Source: a virus. Taken from it: a stretch of 20,582 nucleotides of DNA. The position numbers and the translations under genes were made by a program. Below, piece after piece: positions 418 to 12,750 of this stretch; the stretch's first letter is position 1, and each line of letters starts with the position of its first letter. The stretch covers positions 1-20,582 of the IMG/VR virus record IMGVR_UViG_3300049728_000070; one strand, given 5' to 3'. The notes beneath the pieces are model-generated. The model did not search any database. It had not been told where the DNA came from and worked only from the letters and a program-made list of their open reading frames with translations.

Positions 418-1662
418 ATGGACCTCTCCAAGAAGAAGGCTTTCGTGTACGACTACGGCGTTTTTATGCCGATCGCTATGCGTCTCGCCGAAGATTTTGG
501 GGAGGTTTTTTATTTTGTGCCCTGGAAGGGAACGTACTGCACGCGTGACCGCTTCACGATCGGCGAGGGCGTGCCGGGGCTGACCCGCGTCGACTCGTTC
601 GAGGATTACATCGACCAGGCCGACGTGTTCGTCTTTCCGGATGTGGGCGACGGTGACAAGCAGGTGATGCTGCGCGGCCTCGGCAAGCGCGTCTTTGGCA
701 CCGGCTATGCTGAGCTGTTAGAACAAGACCGGATGCTCTTCAAGGGCGTCCTCAAGAAGCAGAAGCTCCCCGTCGGCCCGTACAAGACCTTCAAAGGCAC
801 CGACGCCCTGTCCGACTTCCTGCGCAAGGAGCCCGGCACCTGCTACATCAAAGTCAGCACGTTCCGCGGCAACTGCGAGACGGCCCGCTTCGACACCTAC
901 CTCGCCTTCATCCCCACTCTCGACCGCTGGGCCAAGTCCCTGGGCGCGTACCGCTTCCAGATGGAGTTCATCGTCGACTTCCCGATCGAGGGGCAGGAGG
1001 GCGGCTCCGACTTCTTCCTTTCCAACGGTGAGTACTTGCCGATCGGGACCTACGGCTATGAGGTGAAGGACCACGGCTACATCTCCAAAGCCATGAAGAT
1101 GACCGATATGCCGGACGCGATCACCTACGTCAACGACCGCATGGCGCCGGTGTACCGCGAATACGGCATCTGTGGCGCCGCGTCCTCTGAAGAGCGGATC
1201 ACCAAGGAGCTGGTGCCGTACTTCACCGACATGTGCGCTCGCTTCGGTTCCCCTCCTGCTGAGCTGATTTGCCGTCTCTACAAGAACTTCTCGCAGATCG
1301 TCTGGGCCGTTTCCGGTGGCGAGATGATCACCCCCGAGCCGGTCGCTGAGTATGCGGCCGAGGTGATGATCAGCTGCGAGGCGGCGCGTGACGGCTGGGT
1401 ACCGCTGGACTATCCGGAGAAGCTCCGCAAGAACGTGCTGCTCAGGAACCTGTGCTGCCTCGATGGCCAGTTTTTCCACATCCCACAGGACAGCTGCACG
1501 TCCCTGGGTGCGGCCGTCGGCTACGGCAAGACGAGAGAGGCGGCACAAGAACAGGCGCTGAAGTTCGCCGGCGAGTTCGGGCACGACTTCGACTTTGCCG
1601 TCTTTGACAAGGTGGCTGAATATCTGGAAGAGGCCAAGGAATACGGCCTGGGAGAGTTTTAG
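418..1662 (+). CDS. PurD-like ATP-grasp superfamily ligase
   Basis: This 414-residue protein resembles the ATP-grasp ligases, closest in style to phosphoribosylamine-glycine ligase (PurD). An N-terminal Rossmann-like region (about 1-95) ends in a V-F-G-T-G segment. An ATP-grasp core follows: the P-V-G-P-Y stretch (118-122), the likely ATP-binding Lys145 in YIKVS, a Gly-containing loop at 148-155, and the metal-site motif at 268-280, PYFTDMCARFGSP. The C-terminal part (365-400) resembles the PurD tail, with VGYGKTREAA. Known members couple ATP hydrolysis to amide-bond formation through an acyl-phosphate. The usual E-x-N-x-R metal motif reads D271-M-C273-A-R275 here, so the second ligand is changed and the substrate is unlikely to be that of PurD. 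AAGGA (407-411) six bases upstream supports the start. Phage ATP-grasp proteins of this kind are often labelled phosphoribosylamine-glycine ligase; true purine synthesis is doubtful. It is followed directly (TAGATG) by the next gene. Confidence 0.75.
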   Translation: MDLSKKKAFVYDYGVFMPIAMRLAEDFGEVFYFVPWKGTYCTRDRFTIGEGVPGLTRVDSFEDYIDQADVFVFPDVGDGDKQVMLRGLGKRVFGTGYAELLEQDRMLFKGVLKKQKLPVGPYKTFKGTDALSDFLRKEPGTCYIKVSTFRGNCETARFDTYLAFIPTLDRWAKSLGAYRFQMEFIVDFPIEGQEGGSDFFLSNGEYLPIGTYGYEVKDHGYISKAMKMTDMPDAITYVNDRMAPVYREYGICGAASSEERITKELVPYFTDMCARFGSPPAELICRLYKNFSQIVWAVSGGEMITPEPVAEYAAEVMISCEAARDGWVPLDYPEKLRKNVLLRNLCCLDGQFFHIPQDSCTSLGAAVGYGKTREAAQEQALKFAGEFGHDFDFAVFDKVAEYLEEAKEYGLGEF

Positions 1663-1896
1663 ATGGGGAACATGGGGCACAGTGGCTACAGACCTAACAG
1701 AGGATGGTTCGCGGAGCTGATCGACCCTTCGCCTATGTCGGCAAGGTGCAAGGTACACAGGTCGCCGCCACACCATGAGCCCAAACCTATCGCCGACGTC
1801 ACACCGTCGCACATCCTGAGAGACCAGCTGCTGCAGGTTAAGGTCGAGATGGCCGTACTCCGGCAGAGGCTGGAAAAGTTAGAGGGGCAAAAATGA
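1663..1896 (+). CDS. Small hypothetical protein with C-terminal coiled coil
   Basis: This 77-residue protein is not recognised. The first 45 residues are rich in Pro, His, Arg and Ser with no clear fold. The last 30 (from the I-L-R-D-Q-L-L stretch onward) form a probable amphipathic helix or coiled coil, with leucines and valines at heptad-like spacing and a charged L-E-K-L-E end. Its ATG follows the stop codon of the ATP-grasp gene immediately, and its TGA overlaps the ATG of the half-MFS gene (ATGA at 1893-1896), so all three are probably translated together. No signal peptide or membrane helix is seen. It might be an adaptor between its two neighbours, but that is inference only. Confidence 0.55.
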   Translation: MGNMGHSGYRPNRGWFAELIDPSPMSARCKVHRSPPHHEPKPIADVTPSHILRDQLLQVKVEMAVLRQRLEKLEGQK

Positions 1897-2450
1897 ACAA
1901 GCTGGCCAAGTGGTTACTGTACGCCTCATTCCTCGGCACCTTCGCTGAGGGCATGCTCTCCCCGATCTACGCCGTCTTCACCGAGAAGATCGGCGGTTCG
2001 ATGGTTGATGCCGGGATGGGGTATGCCGTCTTCAGTATCGCAACCGGGATCGCCGTGATGCTGATCGGCAAGACTGACTTCTTCGACCGGCACAGCAAGT
2101 GGTTCTTGTTTTGGGGTTTCCTCTGCGCTGGCCTCTGCGACCTGCTCTACATCGGCGTGAGCAACAAGTGGGAGTTCTTCGCGGTCCAGGTGATCCTCGG
2201 GGTTTCCCTCGGGATAGCCAACCCGGCGTGGGATGCGCTCTACTGTGACGACGAGGAAGATGGCAAGAGCTCTGCCGGCAAGTGGTCTTTCTGGACCGGT
2301 GGGATTTCCTTCGTGTGCGGCCTGTCCGCGCTCTTCGGTAGCCTCCTGGTGAAGTACTTCGGGTTCAACACCATGTTCGTCCTGATGTTTCTCTTCGACC
2401 TGATATCGGTCTCCTACTGCTACCGGATCGCGAGGCGCACGGATGGATAA
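1893..2450 (+). CDS. Half-size MFS-like permease with six membrane helices
   Basis: The 185-residue protein has about six hydrophobic helices: roughly 7-29, 40-60, 70-89, 94-116, 132-153 and 158-178. It looks like the N-terminal six-helix half of a major facilitator superfamily transporter. The loop between helices 2 and 3 holds a motif A-like stretch, G59-K-T-D62-F-F-D65-R66, and an acidic loop (D119-D123) follows helix 4. MFS proteins usually have 12 helices and 400 or more residues. Here the frame closes after six with a normal basic end (ARRTDG) and overlaps the next gene, so it looks designed as a half rather than truncated. Two copies might assemble into a full transporter in the host inner membrane. 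The substrate is unknown. The SD-like AGAGGGG is just upstream and the start overlaps the preceding stop. Confidence 0.7.
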   Translation: MNKLAKWLLYASFLGTFAEGMLSPIYAVFTEKIGGSMVDAGMGYAVFSIATGIAVMLIGKTDFFDRHSKWFLFWGFLCAGLCDLLYIGVSNKWEFFAVQVILGVSLGIANPAWDALYCDDEEDGKSSAGKWSFWTGGISFVCGLSALFGSLLVKYFGFNTMFVLMFLFDLISVSYCYRIARRTDG

Positions 2451-2601
2451 GAGGGGCGTCACCGAAGCAATCAGAAGCCGGGAGAAGTTGCAGGCCGCCT
2501 GCCACCACGAGCCCTACATCTCCCCGCCGAAGTATCCAGGCGGGCCCACGGTCAAGGAATGCAGGAAGTGCGGGCAGCAAACATTCATCAAGGGGGGATA
2601 A
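2443..2601 (+). CDS. Small zinc-ribbon-like protein, 52 residues
   Basis: This short frame starts at an ATG overlapping the last eight bases of the half-MFS gene and ends at TAA 2599-2601. The protein is basic and has C20-H21-H22, then after 17 residues C40-R-K-C43-G. The pattern suits a small treble-clef or zinc-ribbon site with Cys/His ligands, common among tiny phage proteins that bind nucleic acid or act as adaptors. The fit into the gap between two better-supported genes and the C-x2-C knuckle support it as real. No more precise function can be given. Confidence 0.55.
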   Translation: MDKRGVTEAIRSREKLQAACHHEPYISPPKYPGGPTVKECRKCGQQTFIKGG

Positions 2602-2803: not shown

Positions 2804-4483
2804 ATGGGCGCTGAAACGAAAAGACAGAGGTTTGATGCACGGCTGCAGGCGCTCTCAAGCGACCTGACGAACTTCATTCCTCACTGGCGTGACATCACCG
2901 ATTACATCAGCCCCCGGACGGCGCGCTACATCACCATCGACTACAGCAAGGGCTCGAAGCAGAACGAGAAGATCATCGACAACACGGCGACCATCTCGGT
3001 CCGCACGCTCAAGAGCGGCATGATGGCCGGCATCACCTCACCGGCGCGCCCCTGGTTCAACCTCCTGCCGCCCAGCTCTGGTGTGGACGAATCCTACGCC
3101 GTCAAAACGTGGCTCTACGACGTCGTGATGCTGATGAATCAGATCTTCCTCAAGTCGAACCTCTACGACATCCTGCCGATGGTTTACGCCTGTCTGGCGC
3201 TGTATGGCACCGCCGCGATGATGATCGAAGAGGATGACGAGGACATCATCCGTTGCATTCAGTTCCCTAACGGGCAGTGGATGATTTCGCTCAACGCTAA
3301 GTTGAAAGTCGATTCGATGTACCGCACCTTCTCGATGTCCTGCCGGCAACTGGTGCAGCAGTTCGGTTTGGAAAACTGCTCGCAGGCTGTCCAGTCCATG
3401 TACGAATCCCCCACGGGCGGCACGCGGGATACGATGGTGGAAGTCGTGCACCTGATCGAGCCGAACGACGAGCACGACCCGAGCAAGTTCGCCTCGAAGC
3501 ACAAGCCCTTCCGCTCCGTCTACTATGAGCGCGGGGGGAGCGAACCCGACAAGTTCCTACGCGAGTCCGGCTATGACGAGTTCCCGGTGCAGGCCCCTCG
3601 GTGGGACCTCCTGGGCGAAGACGTGTACGGCTACTCCCCGGCCATGGACGCCCTGGGCGACATCAAGATGCTGCAGCTGCAGCAGCGCCGCAAGCTCCAG
3701 GCGGGCGACAAGATGGTCAACCCGCCGATGATCGCGGACGCATCCTTGAGGCAACAGAAAACCTCCACGCTTCCTGGTGGGGTCACCTACATCGACGGGC
3801 TGAGCGCACAGGCCCACCCCGGCTTCCGGTCCGCCTACGACGTCAACTTCAACGTCGATCACGCCCGCCAGGATATTTTGGAGACACAGGCCCGCATCAA
3901 GAAGACCTTCTTCGAGGACCTGATGCTGATGTTCTCCGGGCGCGATCAATCGATCATCAACCCCTCGGAGATCGCGGAGCGCAGCCAAGAGAAGGTCATG
4001 GTCCTGGGACCGGTCATGGAGCGCCTCAACAAGGAGCTGCTCAACCTGATCATCGACCGCACCTTCGCGATCATGAACCGCAAGGGCATCCTCCCCCCGG
4101 CGCCCCCCGAGCTGCAGGGGCAGCAGCTGCGCGTTGACTACACCTCCGTCATGGCTCAGGCGCTTAAGCTGTCAGGGTCGAGCAATATGGACCAGGTGAT
4201 TAACCTCATCGGCGGCCTGGCGAAGCTGAAGCCGGAAGCGATCGATAAGCTGAACGTGGACGAGACCATCGACGCCTATGCCAACATGCACGGCGTGCCG
4301 CCCAAGATGATCTACTCCGAGGACCAGGTGAAGCAGCTGCGCGCGGTACGTGCCAAACAGCAGCAAATGGCGCAGATGGCGCAGATGGCCAAACCGATGA
4401 ACGACATGAGCAAGGCAGCAAAGAACATGGGCGAGACGGACACCGACGGCGGCATGCTGGCCAAGATGGCGGGCGGCCAATAA
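2804..4483 (+). CDS. Portal (head-to-tail connector) protein
   Basis: The 559-residue protein matches the podovirus head-tail connector family (T7 gp8 type, usually 500-560 residues). The opening has the family's R-F-x-x-R-L-x-A-L-x-x-x ... W-R-D-I-T-D-Y-I-x-P-R pattern (9-37). Later come the N-D-x-x-x-x-I-S-V-R-T-L-K-S-G-M-M-A-G-I-T-S-P-like segment (about 60-80), the F-P-N-G-Q-W region (155-160) and the E-I-A-E-R-S-Q-E-K helix (about 387-396) near the crown. The last 60 residues are Gln/Met-rich with repeated M-A-Q-M. Twelve copies form the ring through which DNA is packaged and ejected and to which scaffold and tail adaptor bind. The ATG follows the previous TGA by one base. No strong Shine-Dalgarno is seen, so translation is probably coupled. 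Confidence 0.93.
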   Translation: MGAETKRQRFDARLQALSSDLTNFIPHWRDITDYISPRTARYITIDYSKGSKQNEKIIDNTATISVRTLKSGMMAGITSPARPWFNLLPPSSGVDESYAVKTWLYDVVMLMNQIFLKSNLYDILPMVYACLALYGTAAMMIEEDDEDIIRCIQFPNGQWMISLNAKLKVDSMYRTFSMSCRQLVQQFGLENCSQAVQSMYESPTGGTRDTMVEVVHLIEPNDEHDPSKFASKHKPFRSVYYERGGSEPDKFLRESGYDEFPVQAPRWDLLGEDVYGYSPAMDALGDIKMLQLQQRRKLQAGDKMVNPPMIADASLRQQKTSTLPGGVTYIDGLSAQAHPGFRSAYDVNFNVDHARQDILETQARIKKTFFEDLMLMFSGRDQSIINPSEIAERSQEKVMVLGPVMERLNKELLNLIIDRTFAIMNRKGILPPAPPELQGQQLRVDYTSVMAQALKLSGSSNMDQVINLIGGLAKLKPEAIDKLNVDETIDAYANMHGVPPKMIYSEDQVKQLRAVRAKQQQMAQMAQMAKPMNDMSKAAKNMGETDTDGGMLAKMAGGQ

Positions 4484-11470: not shown

Positions 11471-11846
11471 TGAATGCCTATTCCAGCGGGAGCTGCCGGA
11501 GGTGCAGCTATGCCGCCAAGAGCGCAGCATGGCAAGCATGGAGTCTGCGGTTAAGACCATCGCTAAAGCGGTGGACGAGATCAAGGACGGGCAGAAGGAA
11601 AATAATAAGCTGATGCGGGACATCGCCGTCCAGGGCACCAAGGTTGACGCGCTGGTGAAAGCTCTGGATGTGGAGGTGGCCGACAGGAAGCATGTCAATG
11701 ACATCCTCTTCACACGGGTTCAAGCACTCGAACAAGCCCCCGTGCAGGCCGCCAATAACAGGCAGTCAGGTCTCTGGGGTAATGTGGCAGCCGCCATCAT
11801 TGGTGCTCTCATGGCGCTCATCATCCTTTTTGCGGGGAAAAAATGA
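11457..11846 (+). CDS. Coiled-coil protein with C-terminal membrane helix (XhlA/holin-like)
   Basis: The frame begins with GTG and encodes 129 residues. A long charged helix runs from about 25 to 95 with heptad-like hydrophobic spacing, and one membrane helix lies near the end (about 106-126: W-G-N-V-A-A-A-I-I-G-A-L-M-A-L-I-I-L-F), closing with G-K-K. This layout, cytoplasmic coiled coil plus tail anchor, is seen in XhlA-type lysis proteins and in other small phage membrane proteins. A holin or superinfection role is possible. The position among structural genes rather than beside an endolysin (none is seen in the window) leaves a membrane anchor for ejection open too. It overlaps the nozzle gene by 14 bases, and its TGA overlaps the next ATG. 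Confidence 0.6.
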   Translation: MAGTDECLFQRELPEVQLCRQERSMASMESAVKTIAKAVDEIKDGQKENNKLMRDIAVQGTKVDALVKALDVEVADRKHVNDILFTRVQALEQAPVQAANNRQSGLWGNVAAAIIGALMALIILFAGKK

Positions 11847-12301
11847 AACTATGGATAGCGGAAGCCAGAGGGACCCACATCCCGGCTATTGCGGCGAATG
11901 CGCGGCAGGCTGACCGGGACGAGATGGAAGCCTTTGCGGGGCTGAGCGTCAAGGAAGCTCTGGAGGTGTCGCTTGCAAACTCCACCAGGGCATGGACCGT
12001 GTTCGTCGGCGATGAGGCGGCTTGCATGTGCGGGGTCACCCCGATGCCGCTCAGGGTCGGGCGCCCCTGGATGATCGGCACCAATGTCATCGACAAGTAC
12101 CAGCTGCCCCTCCTTCGCGCCTGCAGGCCGGTGGTGCAGGAAATGCGGCAGGGTTTTACGCTCCTGGAGAACTTCGTGGACGCGCGCAACACCCGGGCAC
12201 TCCGGTGGCTCAAGTGGCTGGGGTTCGAGGTCGATGTCTTCGCTGTTCCCGCAGGAGTGTCCGGCATGCCGTTTTACCGGTTTGAGATGGAGGGGAGATG
12301 A
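11843..12301 (+). CDS. T7 gp13-like protein with GNAT acetyltransferase fold
   Basis: The 152-residue protein matches the T7 gp13-type family (DUF2833), which has a GNAT-like fold. A central beta/alpha pattern (T-R-A-W-T-V-F-V-G-D-E-A-A-C-M-C-G-V, 48-65) leads to W-M-I-G-T (76-80), and the characteristic GNAT C-terminal signature follows: F-V-D-A-R-N-T-R-A-L-R-W-L-K-W-L-G-F-E-V (111-130). The classical acetyl-CoA loop Q/R-x-x-G-x-G/A is not evident, so catalysis is uncertain. T7 gp13 is needed for virion assembly of internal proteins but its activity is unclear. The start shares four bases with the previous stop, and its TGA overlaps the cupin start. Confidence 0.75.
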   Translation: MKLWIAEARGTHIPAIAANARQADRDEMEAFAGLSVKEALEVSLANSTRAWTVFVGDEAACMCGVTPMPLRVGRPWMIGTNVIDKYQLPLLRACRPVVQEMRQGFTLLENFVDARNTRALRWLKWLGFEVDVFAVPAGVSGMPFYRFEMEGR

Positions 12302-12750
12302 ACGAGCCAACAACAGCAATAGAGGACTTCGCCGGGAAGATAACAGCATCCGAGAACTTCATCGGGAGCCTTGAACAGCTCACCATCGAGGTGGAGCACT
12401 CCTTTGGGGAAGGACTGTACCGCAGGAAGGCGACCGCGCCGAAAGATTCAGTCATCATCTCCATGGTCCATCTGCACGACAACTTCGCTTTCATCATGAC
12501 AGGTGAGGTGACGGTGATCTCCGAAGATGGCCCGCAGAGGATCAAGGCGCCTGCCGCCTTCCTCACCAAGGCCGGAACCAAGCGGATGATTATAGCCCAC
12601 GAGGAATCAATCTGGTACACCGTCCACGCCTTGCCGGCAGAGCTAGGTGAGCACTCAAAAATAGAAGACGTAGAGGATTATATTGCTTGTGGCACGCTGG
12701 CCGATTACGACCGGTGGCTCCTTGCAGAACAGTTGAAGCTGGAGGCTTGA
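12298..12750 (+). CDS. Phage cupin-fold protein
   Basis: The 150-residue protein reads like a single cupin barrel: V-H-L-H-D-N-F-A-F-I-M-T-G-E-V-T-V-I (57-74), S-E-D-G-P-Q-R-I-K-A-P (75-85), then a T-K-A-G-T-K-R segment (90-96), H101 in I-A-H-E and W-Y-T-V-H110. H58, H60 and H101 are possible metal ligands. The turn normally reads G-(x)5-H-x-H-(x)3-4-E-(x)6-G, and part of it is recognisable. Similar cupins are common between gp13-like and gp14-like genes of podoviruses; no role is established. A late I-E-D-V-E-D-Y-I stretch (122-129) is also typical. It starts within an ATGA overlap. Confidence 0.68.
   Translation: MNEPTTAIEDFAGKITASENFIGSLEQLTIEVEHSFGEGLYRRKATAPKDSVIISMVHLHDNFAFIMTGEVTVISEDGPQRIKAPAAFLTKAGTKRMIIAHEESIWYTVHALPAELGEHSKIEDVEDYIACGTLADYDRWLLAEQLKLEA

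Follow-up and report, generated by a model that had tools for sequence, protein, structure and literature searches.

Enzymes of the ATP-grasp superfamily mostly ligate a carboxylate to an amine or a thiol (PMC8141765). A ligase that works in sequence with a decarboxylase is the tyramine-glutamate ligase MfnD, which acts in methanofuran synthesis after the tyrosine decarboxylase MfnA, the amine made by the first enzyme being ligated to glutamate by the second (PMC8141765). Caudate phages carry ATP-grasp enzymes as well, the R2K peptide ligases, which form a divergent clade of sporadic occurrence and unknown target and are predicted to modify proteins (PMC4431377, PMC7824862). Phages also encode homologues of SpeD (AdoMet decarboxylase), which can use ornithine or arginine as the substrate for decarboxylation (PMC9992855, PMC10407285); neither of these texts uses the term ATP-grasp. 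Our literature searches on ATP-grasp or PurD-type ligases with AdoMet decarboxylases or MFS proteins found no report of such gene pairs. Here we describe a phage cassette that encodes a PurD-like ATP-grasp protein together with half of an MFS permease.

Results

A Four-Gene Cassette between terL and the Portal Gene

The window, by which we mean the whole stretch of DNA analyzed, is a 20,582-bp IMG/VR record (G000) from an epsilon15-like podovirus. Genomes of the epsilon15 group are about 40 kb, so the record is a partial genome. Its portal, or head-tail connector, gene (2804–4483, + strand) matches PF12236 (E = 3e-152), its product is at most 49% identical to those of epsilon15-group phages, and the surrounding gene order resembles that of epsilon15. 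The window start truncates terL, leaving the C-terminal end of the gene (37–318, +). This stretch is continuous with the terL ORF (2–1261) of a second contig, L001, which matches epsilon15 terL, and the complete terL-cassette-portal junction is present in that contig. The two sequences differ at six nucleotides in the overlapping terL stretch and at none in the cassette, so the pair offers no differences within the cassette from which selection could be measured.

Four ORFs on the same (+) strand make up the cassette: a 414-aa PurD-like ATP-grasp ligase (418–1662), a 77-aa protein with a possible C-terminal coiled coil, for which no relatives were found (1663–1896), a 185-aa half-permease (1893–2450), and a 52-aa possible zinc-ribbon protein (2443–2601). 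Their successive junctions are a TAG stop abutting an ATG start, an ATGA overlap, and an 8-nt overlap, in agreement with the original prediction of four tightly coupled genes between terL and portal. For the two small proteins, the labels coiled-coil and zinc-ribbon are plausible on visual inspection only; the second protein carries the pattern CHH...CxxC (C20-H21...C41xxC44), and its best PHROG match is phrog_27296 (E = 0.006). A gp3-like small protein (2605–2802, +; phrog_831, E = 5e-15), which is normally encoded 5' of portal, marks the boundary of the cargo. In overall GC content and in GC by codon position, the ATP-grasp and MFS genes agree with the portal, capsid, and tail genes. Because the composition of these larger cassette genes is the phage's own, neither a recent foreign insertion nor an assembly chimera is suggested.

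The insertion site itself is ordinary. In 71 loci carrying both terL and portal, the gap between the two measures from 231 to 5,322 bp, and the cargo found there in relatives was read by eye as GNAT-like, cupin-like, tail- or tail-fibre-like, or small structural genes. This variability, together with the unrelated nature of the cargo, indicates that the gap is a common cargo site. The expectation that such phages normally have nothing of the kind here was therefore too strong as regards the site, yet it holds for the contents: none of 50 records had an ATP-grasp gene in the gap, and no half-MFS gene was found there. The leader (319–417, +) contains a GAAGGA ribosome-binding site and the small hairpin ACCGTC-GCGAT-GACGGT that had been noticed in front of the cassette, but it folds no better than shuffled sequences (z = -0.92), and a search of it for a sigma-70-like promoter, which had also been proposed, gave no match. 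The original prediction thus overstated the oddity of both the insertion site and the promoter and hairpin. Elsewhere in the window, 3' of the tail genes, lie a 152-aa protein that resembles GNAT enzymes by eye (11843–12301) and a 150-aa cupin-like protein (12298–12750). Proteins resembling this pair occupy the terL-portal gap in L009, L014, and L020, with weak or absent Pfam support.

An Unlisted Family of Viral ATP-Grasp Proteins

The ATP-grasp protein had no match among Pfam, PHROGs, or NCBIfam models. Single-sequence searches of these collections, of phages, of plasmids, and of IMG/VR recovered no relative except in the near-identical contig L001, and tblastn against 50,697 phage genomes gave nothing relevant even at E = 10. 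A phmmer search of the PDB did identify PurD (E = 2e-4), with collinear stretches at residues 89–211 and 260–403. Relatives were uncovered by scanning IMG/VR with a degenerate DNA pattern for D...RFGSPP.E, which gave 23 matches; besides L001, 21 of the other 22 were full or partial relatives (phmmer E values from 1e-43 to 1e-83). A second pattern combined with an alignment scan raised the total to at least 70 distinct virus proteins in IMG/VR, which form 66 clusters at 90%. These counts are lower bounds, since the gene caller missed several members (L137, L144, L163, L166, L168, L172, and L173) that were recovered by tblastn.

The window protein shares full-length similarity and the R..SPP.E signature with this family and scores 515 bits with the family profile (A1), which its own sequence helped to build. 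A Pfam scan of 21 members returned no strong match of any kind, and tblastn with three members against the 50,697 sequenced phages gave no real match. No member turned up in two scans that covered 84,980 bacterial and archaeal genomes; the patterns used were narrow (RFGSPP only), so the description "virus-only" is provisional. The enzyme thus belongs to a previously unlisted viral family that is confined to viruses in the scans made. The original prediction missed this large family and, with it, the SpeD homologue that recurs as its partner (see below).

Some members differ in architecture or surroundings. The ATP-grasp proteins of L179 (5391–6980) and L156 (476–2071) have an N-terminal extension of about 110 residues that is absent from the window enzyme. 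In L129 (5704–6888), a 172-kb virus contig, a transposon protein that is TnpB-like by eye lies directly upstream and overlaps the called ATP-grasp start.

Fold and Active Site of the ATP-Grasp Protein

The family profile identified PurD in a PDB profile search (E = 7e-13), and the two are collinear over about 400 aa. AlphaFold gave a confident model when supplied with a 21-row alignment (pLDDT 92.5; 34 from the single sequence). The best 15 matches of this model in a PDB fold search were GAR synthetases without exception, and biotin carboxylases, PurT, and PurK came next; the match to solved ATP-grasp enzymes reached E = 1e-22. Sequence search, family profile, and fold therefore all bear out the PurD-like ATP-grasp assignment.

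Sixty aligned members, including the window protein, share an invariant set of residues: E102, K145, R150, E215, K217, E258, R260, D271, R275, S278-P279-P280, E282, and G301. At one further position the window enzyme has D187 where the family has a 95%-conserved Glu. The fold, the nucleotide-binding Lys (K145), and the acidic metal ligands that define the superfamily are all present, with residue roles taken from the alignment. Loss of the nucleotide site had been named as grounds for abandoning the original proposal for the cassette; by alignment and by fold, the nucleotide and metal site is intact. D271 aligns with the Glu of IEFN in E. coli PurD; no acidic residue of PurD corresponds to E258. 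In PurK, PurT, and biotin carboxylase enzymes, acidic residues on successive strands provide two Mg ligands, and by analogy E258 could be the second such ligand, with E258 and D271 mirroring the pair. These enzymes are the next-best fold matches; they differ from the viral family in acting on other substrates and in giving no above-threshold sequence match in the PDB profile search.

What the family shares with PurD is the overall fold, the collinearity, the ATP-grasp Lys, and the metal acid; what is changed is the acceptor site. The NGGREHA phosphoribosylamine loop is missing, the window reading DYGVFM and the family D-x-G-x-F, with D12-x-G14 conserved. The PurD motif IEFNxRFGDPETQ is likewise replaced, by FTDMCARFGSPPAE in the window and by (I)D...R..SPP.E across the family; where PurD has IEFNCRFGDPETQ, the family has (I)D...RFGSPP.E, so that FNCRFGDPETQ becomes RFGSPPxE. 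E258 and the E.K pair at 215/217 are additional invariant features. A retained nucleotide site with a changed acceptor site points to a ligase of the PurD fold type that is not a GAR synthetase, and the exchange of the NGGREHA loop for D12-x-G14 indicates a substrate different from that of purine synthesis. A viral PurD that raises purine synthesis is accordingly the least probable reading that we considered. No solved family is closer than PurD in either sequence or fold, but identity in the fold alignments is 13–18%, both PurD motifs are replaced, and no other purine gene was noticed when the neighbors of family members were read by eye.

The layout of the protein also bears on whether it might, like RimK or the phage R2K ligases, append amino acids to a protein of the host or of the virion. 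Family members often lie among structural or tail-like genes, and R2K enzymes, with which we compare the family by description, are phage-borne and sporadically distributed as it is, and are predicted to modify proteins (PMC4431377, PMC7824862). Against this, nothing of the PurD layout is missing from the predicted fold, which has both the N-terminal and the C-terminal domain of an enzyme that ligates small molecules; fold matches to other viral ATP-grasp proteins are weak (TMq up to 0.48), and SpeD as a recurrent partner fits a small-molecule substrate. We consider protein modification unlikely.

Genes That Recur beside the Family

Neighboring genes of 66 family representatives were clustered. 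The top cluster comprises 21 loci, mostly directly upstream of the ATP-grasp gene (16 entries at position -1), and its members match PF02675 (AdoMet_dc) with E values down to 1e-17, the same family as the described phage SpeD proteins. By whole-record search, a SpeD homologue was present in 19 of 50 family records and in none of 50 epsilon15-like controls (Fisher p = 5e-7, a value that is indicative only, because the controls are a single phage group with shorter records and related members are not independent). The homologues keep the pyruvoyl-forming Ser and the catalytic Cys; unlike the described enzymes, most have Asp at the position of His68 (numbering as in PMC10407285). Those that adjoin the ATP-grasp gene in L086, L087, L103, L118, L138, L141, L145, L165, and others are a candidate substrate-shifted subgroup.

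This association does not extend to the window. Neither PF02675 nor a local SpeD profile had a match in L001 or in the window record, the latter being incomplete, and no SpeD homologue was found among the nine members of the window's subclade; all SpeD-paired members are in the other clade. The recurrence of a SpeD-like partner suggests an amine substrate class, and its absence from the window's clade means that the polyamine argument holds for the wider family and bears only indirectly on the window phage.

The second recurrent neighbor is a protein of about 120 aa with a HELxE motif, found at 13 loci (including L114, L117, L126, L139, L156, L159, and L161) and at none of the control loci; it has no clear Pfam family (best E = 0.03). 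A multi-helix protein matching the Wzy_C O-antigen ligase domain (E = 7e-11 in L145) is encoded four to five genes upstream of the ATP-grasp gene in L136, L140, L145, L146, L177, and L182. In single viruses, genes that appear by eye to encode a PAPS-reductase-like (L104, 5519–6379), an acyltransferase-like (L106, 1536–2438), and a glycosyltransferase-like protein (L125, 6232–7008) lie beside the ATP-grasp gene, hinting at varied metabolic partners. One record, Limnohabitans phage DC33 (L083, PQ492659.1), is filed under Inoviridae, yet its genome measures 39 kb and encodes a homologue of tailed-phage portals; its taxonomy looks wrong.

The Half-MFS Protein and Its Pairing with the ATP-Grasp Protein

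The halves of MFS permeases are parallel repeats, and standalone halves are unusual. The 185-aa protein of the window matches MFS_1 (PF07690) with E = 8e-15 and 55 bits (cut-off 33.4). The match spans only model positions 2–167 of 347 and so identifies the protein as an N-terminal MFS half; it also shows six hydropathy peaks, and the earlier description of a six-helix half was correct. At this length, and with a single MFS match in the record, the twelve helices or two repeats of a complete permease are not present in one chain. The protein therefore resembles the N-terminal repeat of an MFS_1 permease and differs in standing alone.

A homologue was found in one other virus, L179 (IMGVR 3300037156_000024), where a 189-aa half-MFS protein, 66% identical to that of the window, begins 28 bp past the ATP-grasp gene. 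It is the only half-MFS homologue among the neighbors of 70 family members, and a wider scan for half-MFS genes yielded, besides L001 and the L179 record, only a membrane protein of 395 aa in L184 that is unrelated. Between the window and L179 the half-MFS genes show a saturated pS of 0.99 and a pN of 0.235, values that indicate purifying selection on the standalone half. The end points of the two proteins also lie no more than a few residues apart. Selection and a shared end point argue against a truncated wreck. Decay of a once full-length permease to the present half would account for a match to the N-terminal half of MFS_1 only and for the rarity of standalone halves, but the near-identical extent in two viruses despite saturated synonymous change, and the lack of a detectable C-terminal half in either the window or the L179 record, make decay very improbable.

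Co-occurrence of the two genes is rare and consistent, so that rare co-occurrence, the other finding that had been named as counting against the original proposal, is borne out in part. Of 50 records that carry the family, PF07690 was detected in two, L001 and that of L179; both times it is a half-MFS 3' of the ATP-grasp gene, and these records have no other MFS protein. The L179 ATP-grasp protein is 31% identical to the window enzyme. Its virus has a GC content of 49% (60% for the window phage) and a different gene neighborhood, and the 24-kb record contains no portal that matches PF12236; the virus thus appears to be unrelated. On the tree, the window enzyme groups with L124 and L129 (100/95) within the nine-member clade (98/92, midpoint root), which also holds L179 and its near relative L156, which lacks an MFS gene. 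The window and L179 proteins are not sisters in this clade; two changes in MFS presence are required, and the two cases fit independent gains or losses.

These observations can be set against the view that the ATP-grasp and half-MFS genes are unrelated accessory genes (morons) that sit side by side in a cargo site and do not cooperate. The varied and unrelated cargo of the terL-portal gap is as this view would have it, as are the absence of MFS from 48 of 50 family records and the 77-aa gene, which parts the ATP-grasp and half-MFS genes in the window and not in L179. It accounts less well for the co-directional, overlapping genes of the window cassette, for the lack of MFS proteins elsewhere in the family records searched, and for the finding that a virus of other gene context and GC content has the same rare half-MFS immediately 3' of its ATP-grasp gene. 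The last point favors a genuine link. With only two independent occurrences, coupling of the two proteins is plausible, and we regard uncoupled cargo as rather unlikely.

Discussion

The best explanation of the locus, to which we assign a probability of roughly 45%, is that a PurD-derived carboxylate-amine ligase acts on a small amine or amino acid and that a dimeric half-MFS protein moves its substrate or product. The cassette would then be an accessory metabolic cassette of the late region, expressed late in infection. Mg-ATP, held by K145, E258, and D271, would activate a carboxylate as an acyl-phosphate, which would then be joined to an amine. For most family members, one substrate may be a small basic amine or amino acid, as the recurrent SpeD-like (AdoMet decarboxylase-like) partner suggests. 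In the window phage and one other virus, a dimer of the half-MFS protein may carry substrate or product across the inner membrane. The original suggestion that the pair makes and moves a small ligated compound thus remains the best reading, as yet an unproven one, with the pair recurring once, in L179. Of its rivals, the most probable is unlinked cargo; protein modification comes next, then decay of the half-MFS, and last purine synthesis.

A decarboxylase followed by a ligase would have a cellular precedent in MfnA and MfnD, in which the amine product of one enzyme is the substrate of the other (PMC8141765); the resemblance to SpeD plus ATP-grasp is one of logic, since that decarboxylase and that ligase are different enzymes and are cellular. 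More broadly, and more tentatively than for the window cassette, the family might consist of virus-only ATP-grasp amide ligases that, in the course of infection, make and move an amine conjugate with interchangeable partners, a SpeD-derived decarboxylase in many viruses and a dimeric half-MFS transporter in a few. This would be a small-molecule pathway encoded by phages, of which no cellular counterpart has been described.

At least 70 distinct viral proteins now constitute a family of enzymes whose fold is predicted with confidence and whose active site is strictly conserved; it includes the window enzyme, which Pfam, PHROGs, and NCBIfam leave unrecognized. The pairing of this family with AdoMet decarboxylase homologues provides a concrete and testable substrate class, and the pairing with a half-MFS protein brings to light a rare case of a half-transporter that stands alone and is under selection. 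If the proposed ligation is correct, it would add a new reaction to the effects of phages on host amine and polyamine metabolism.
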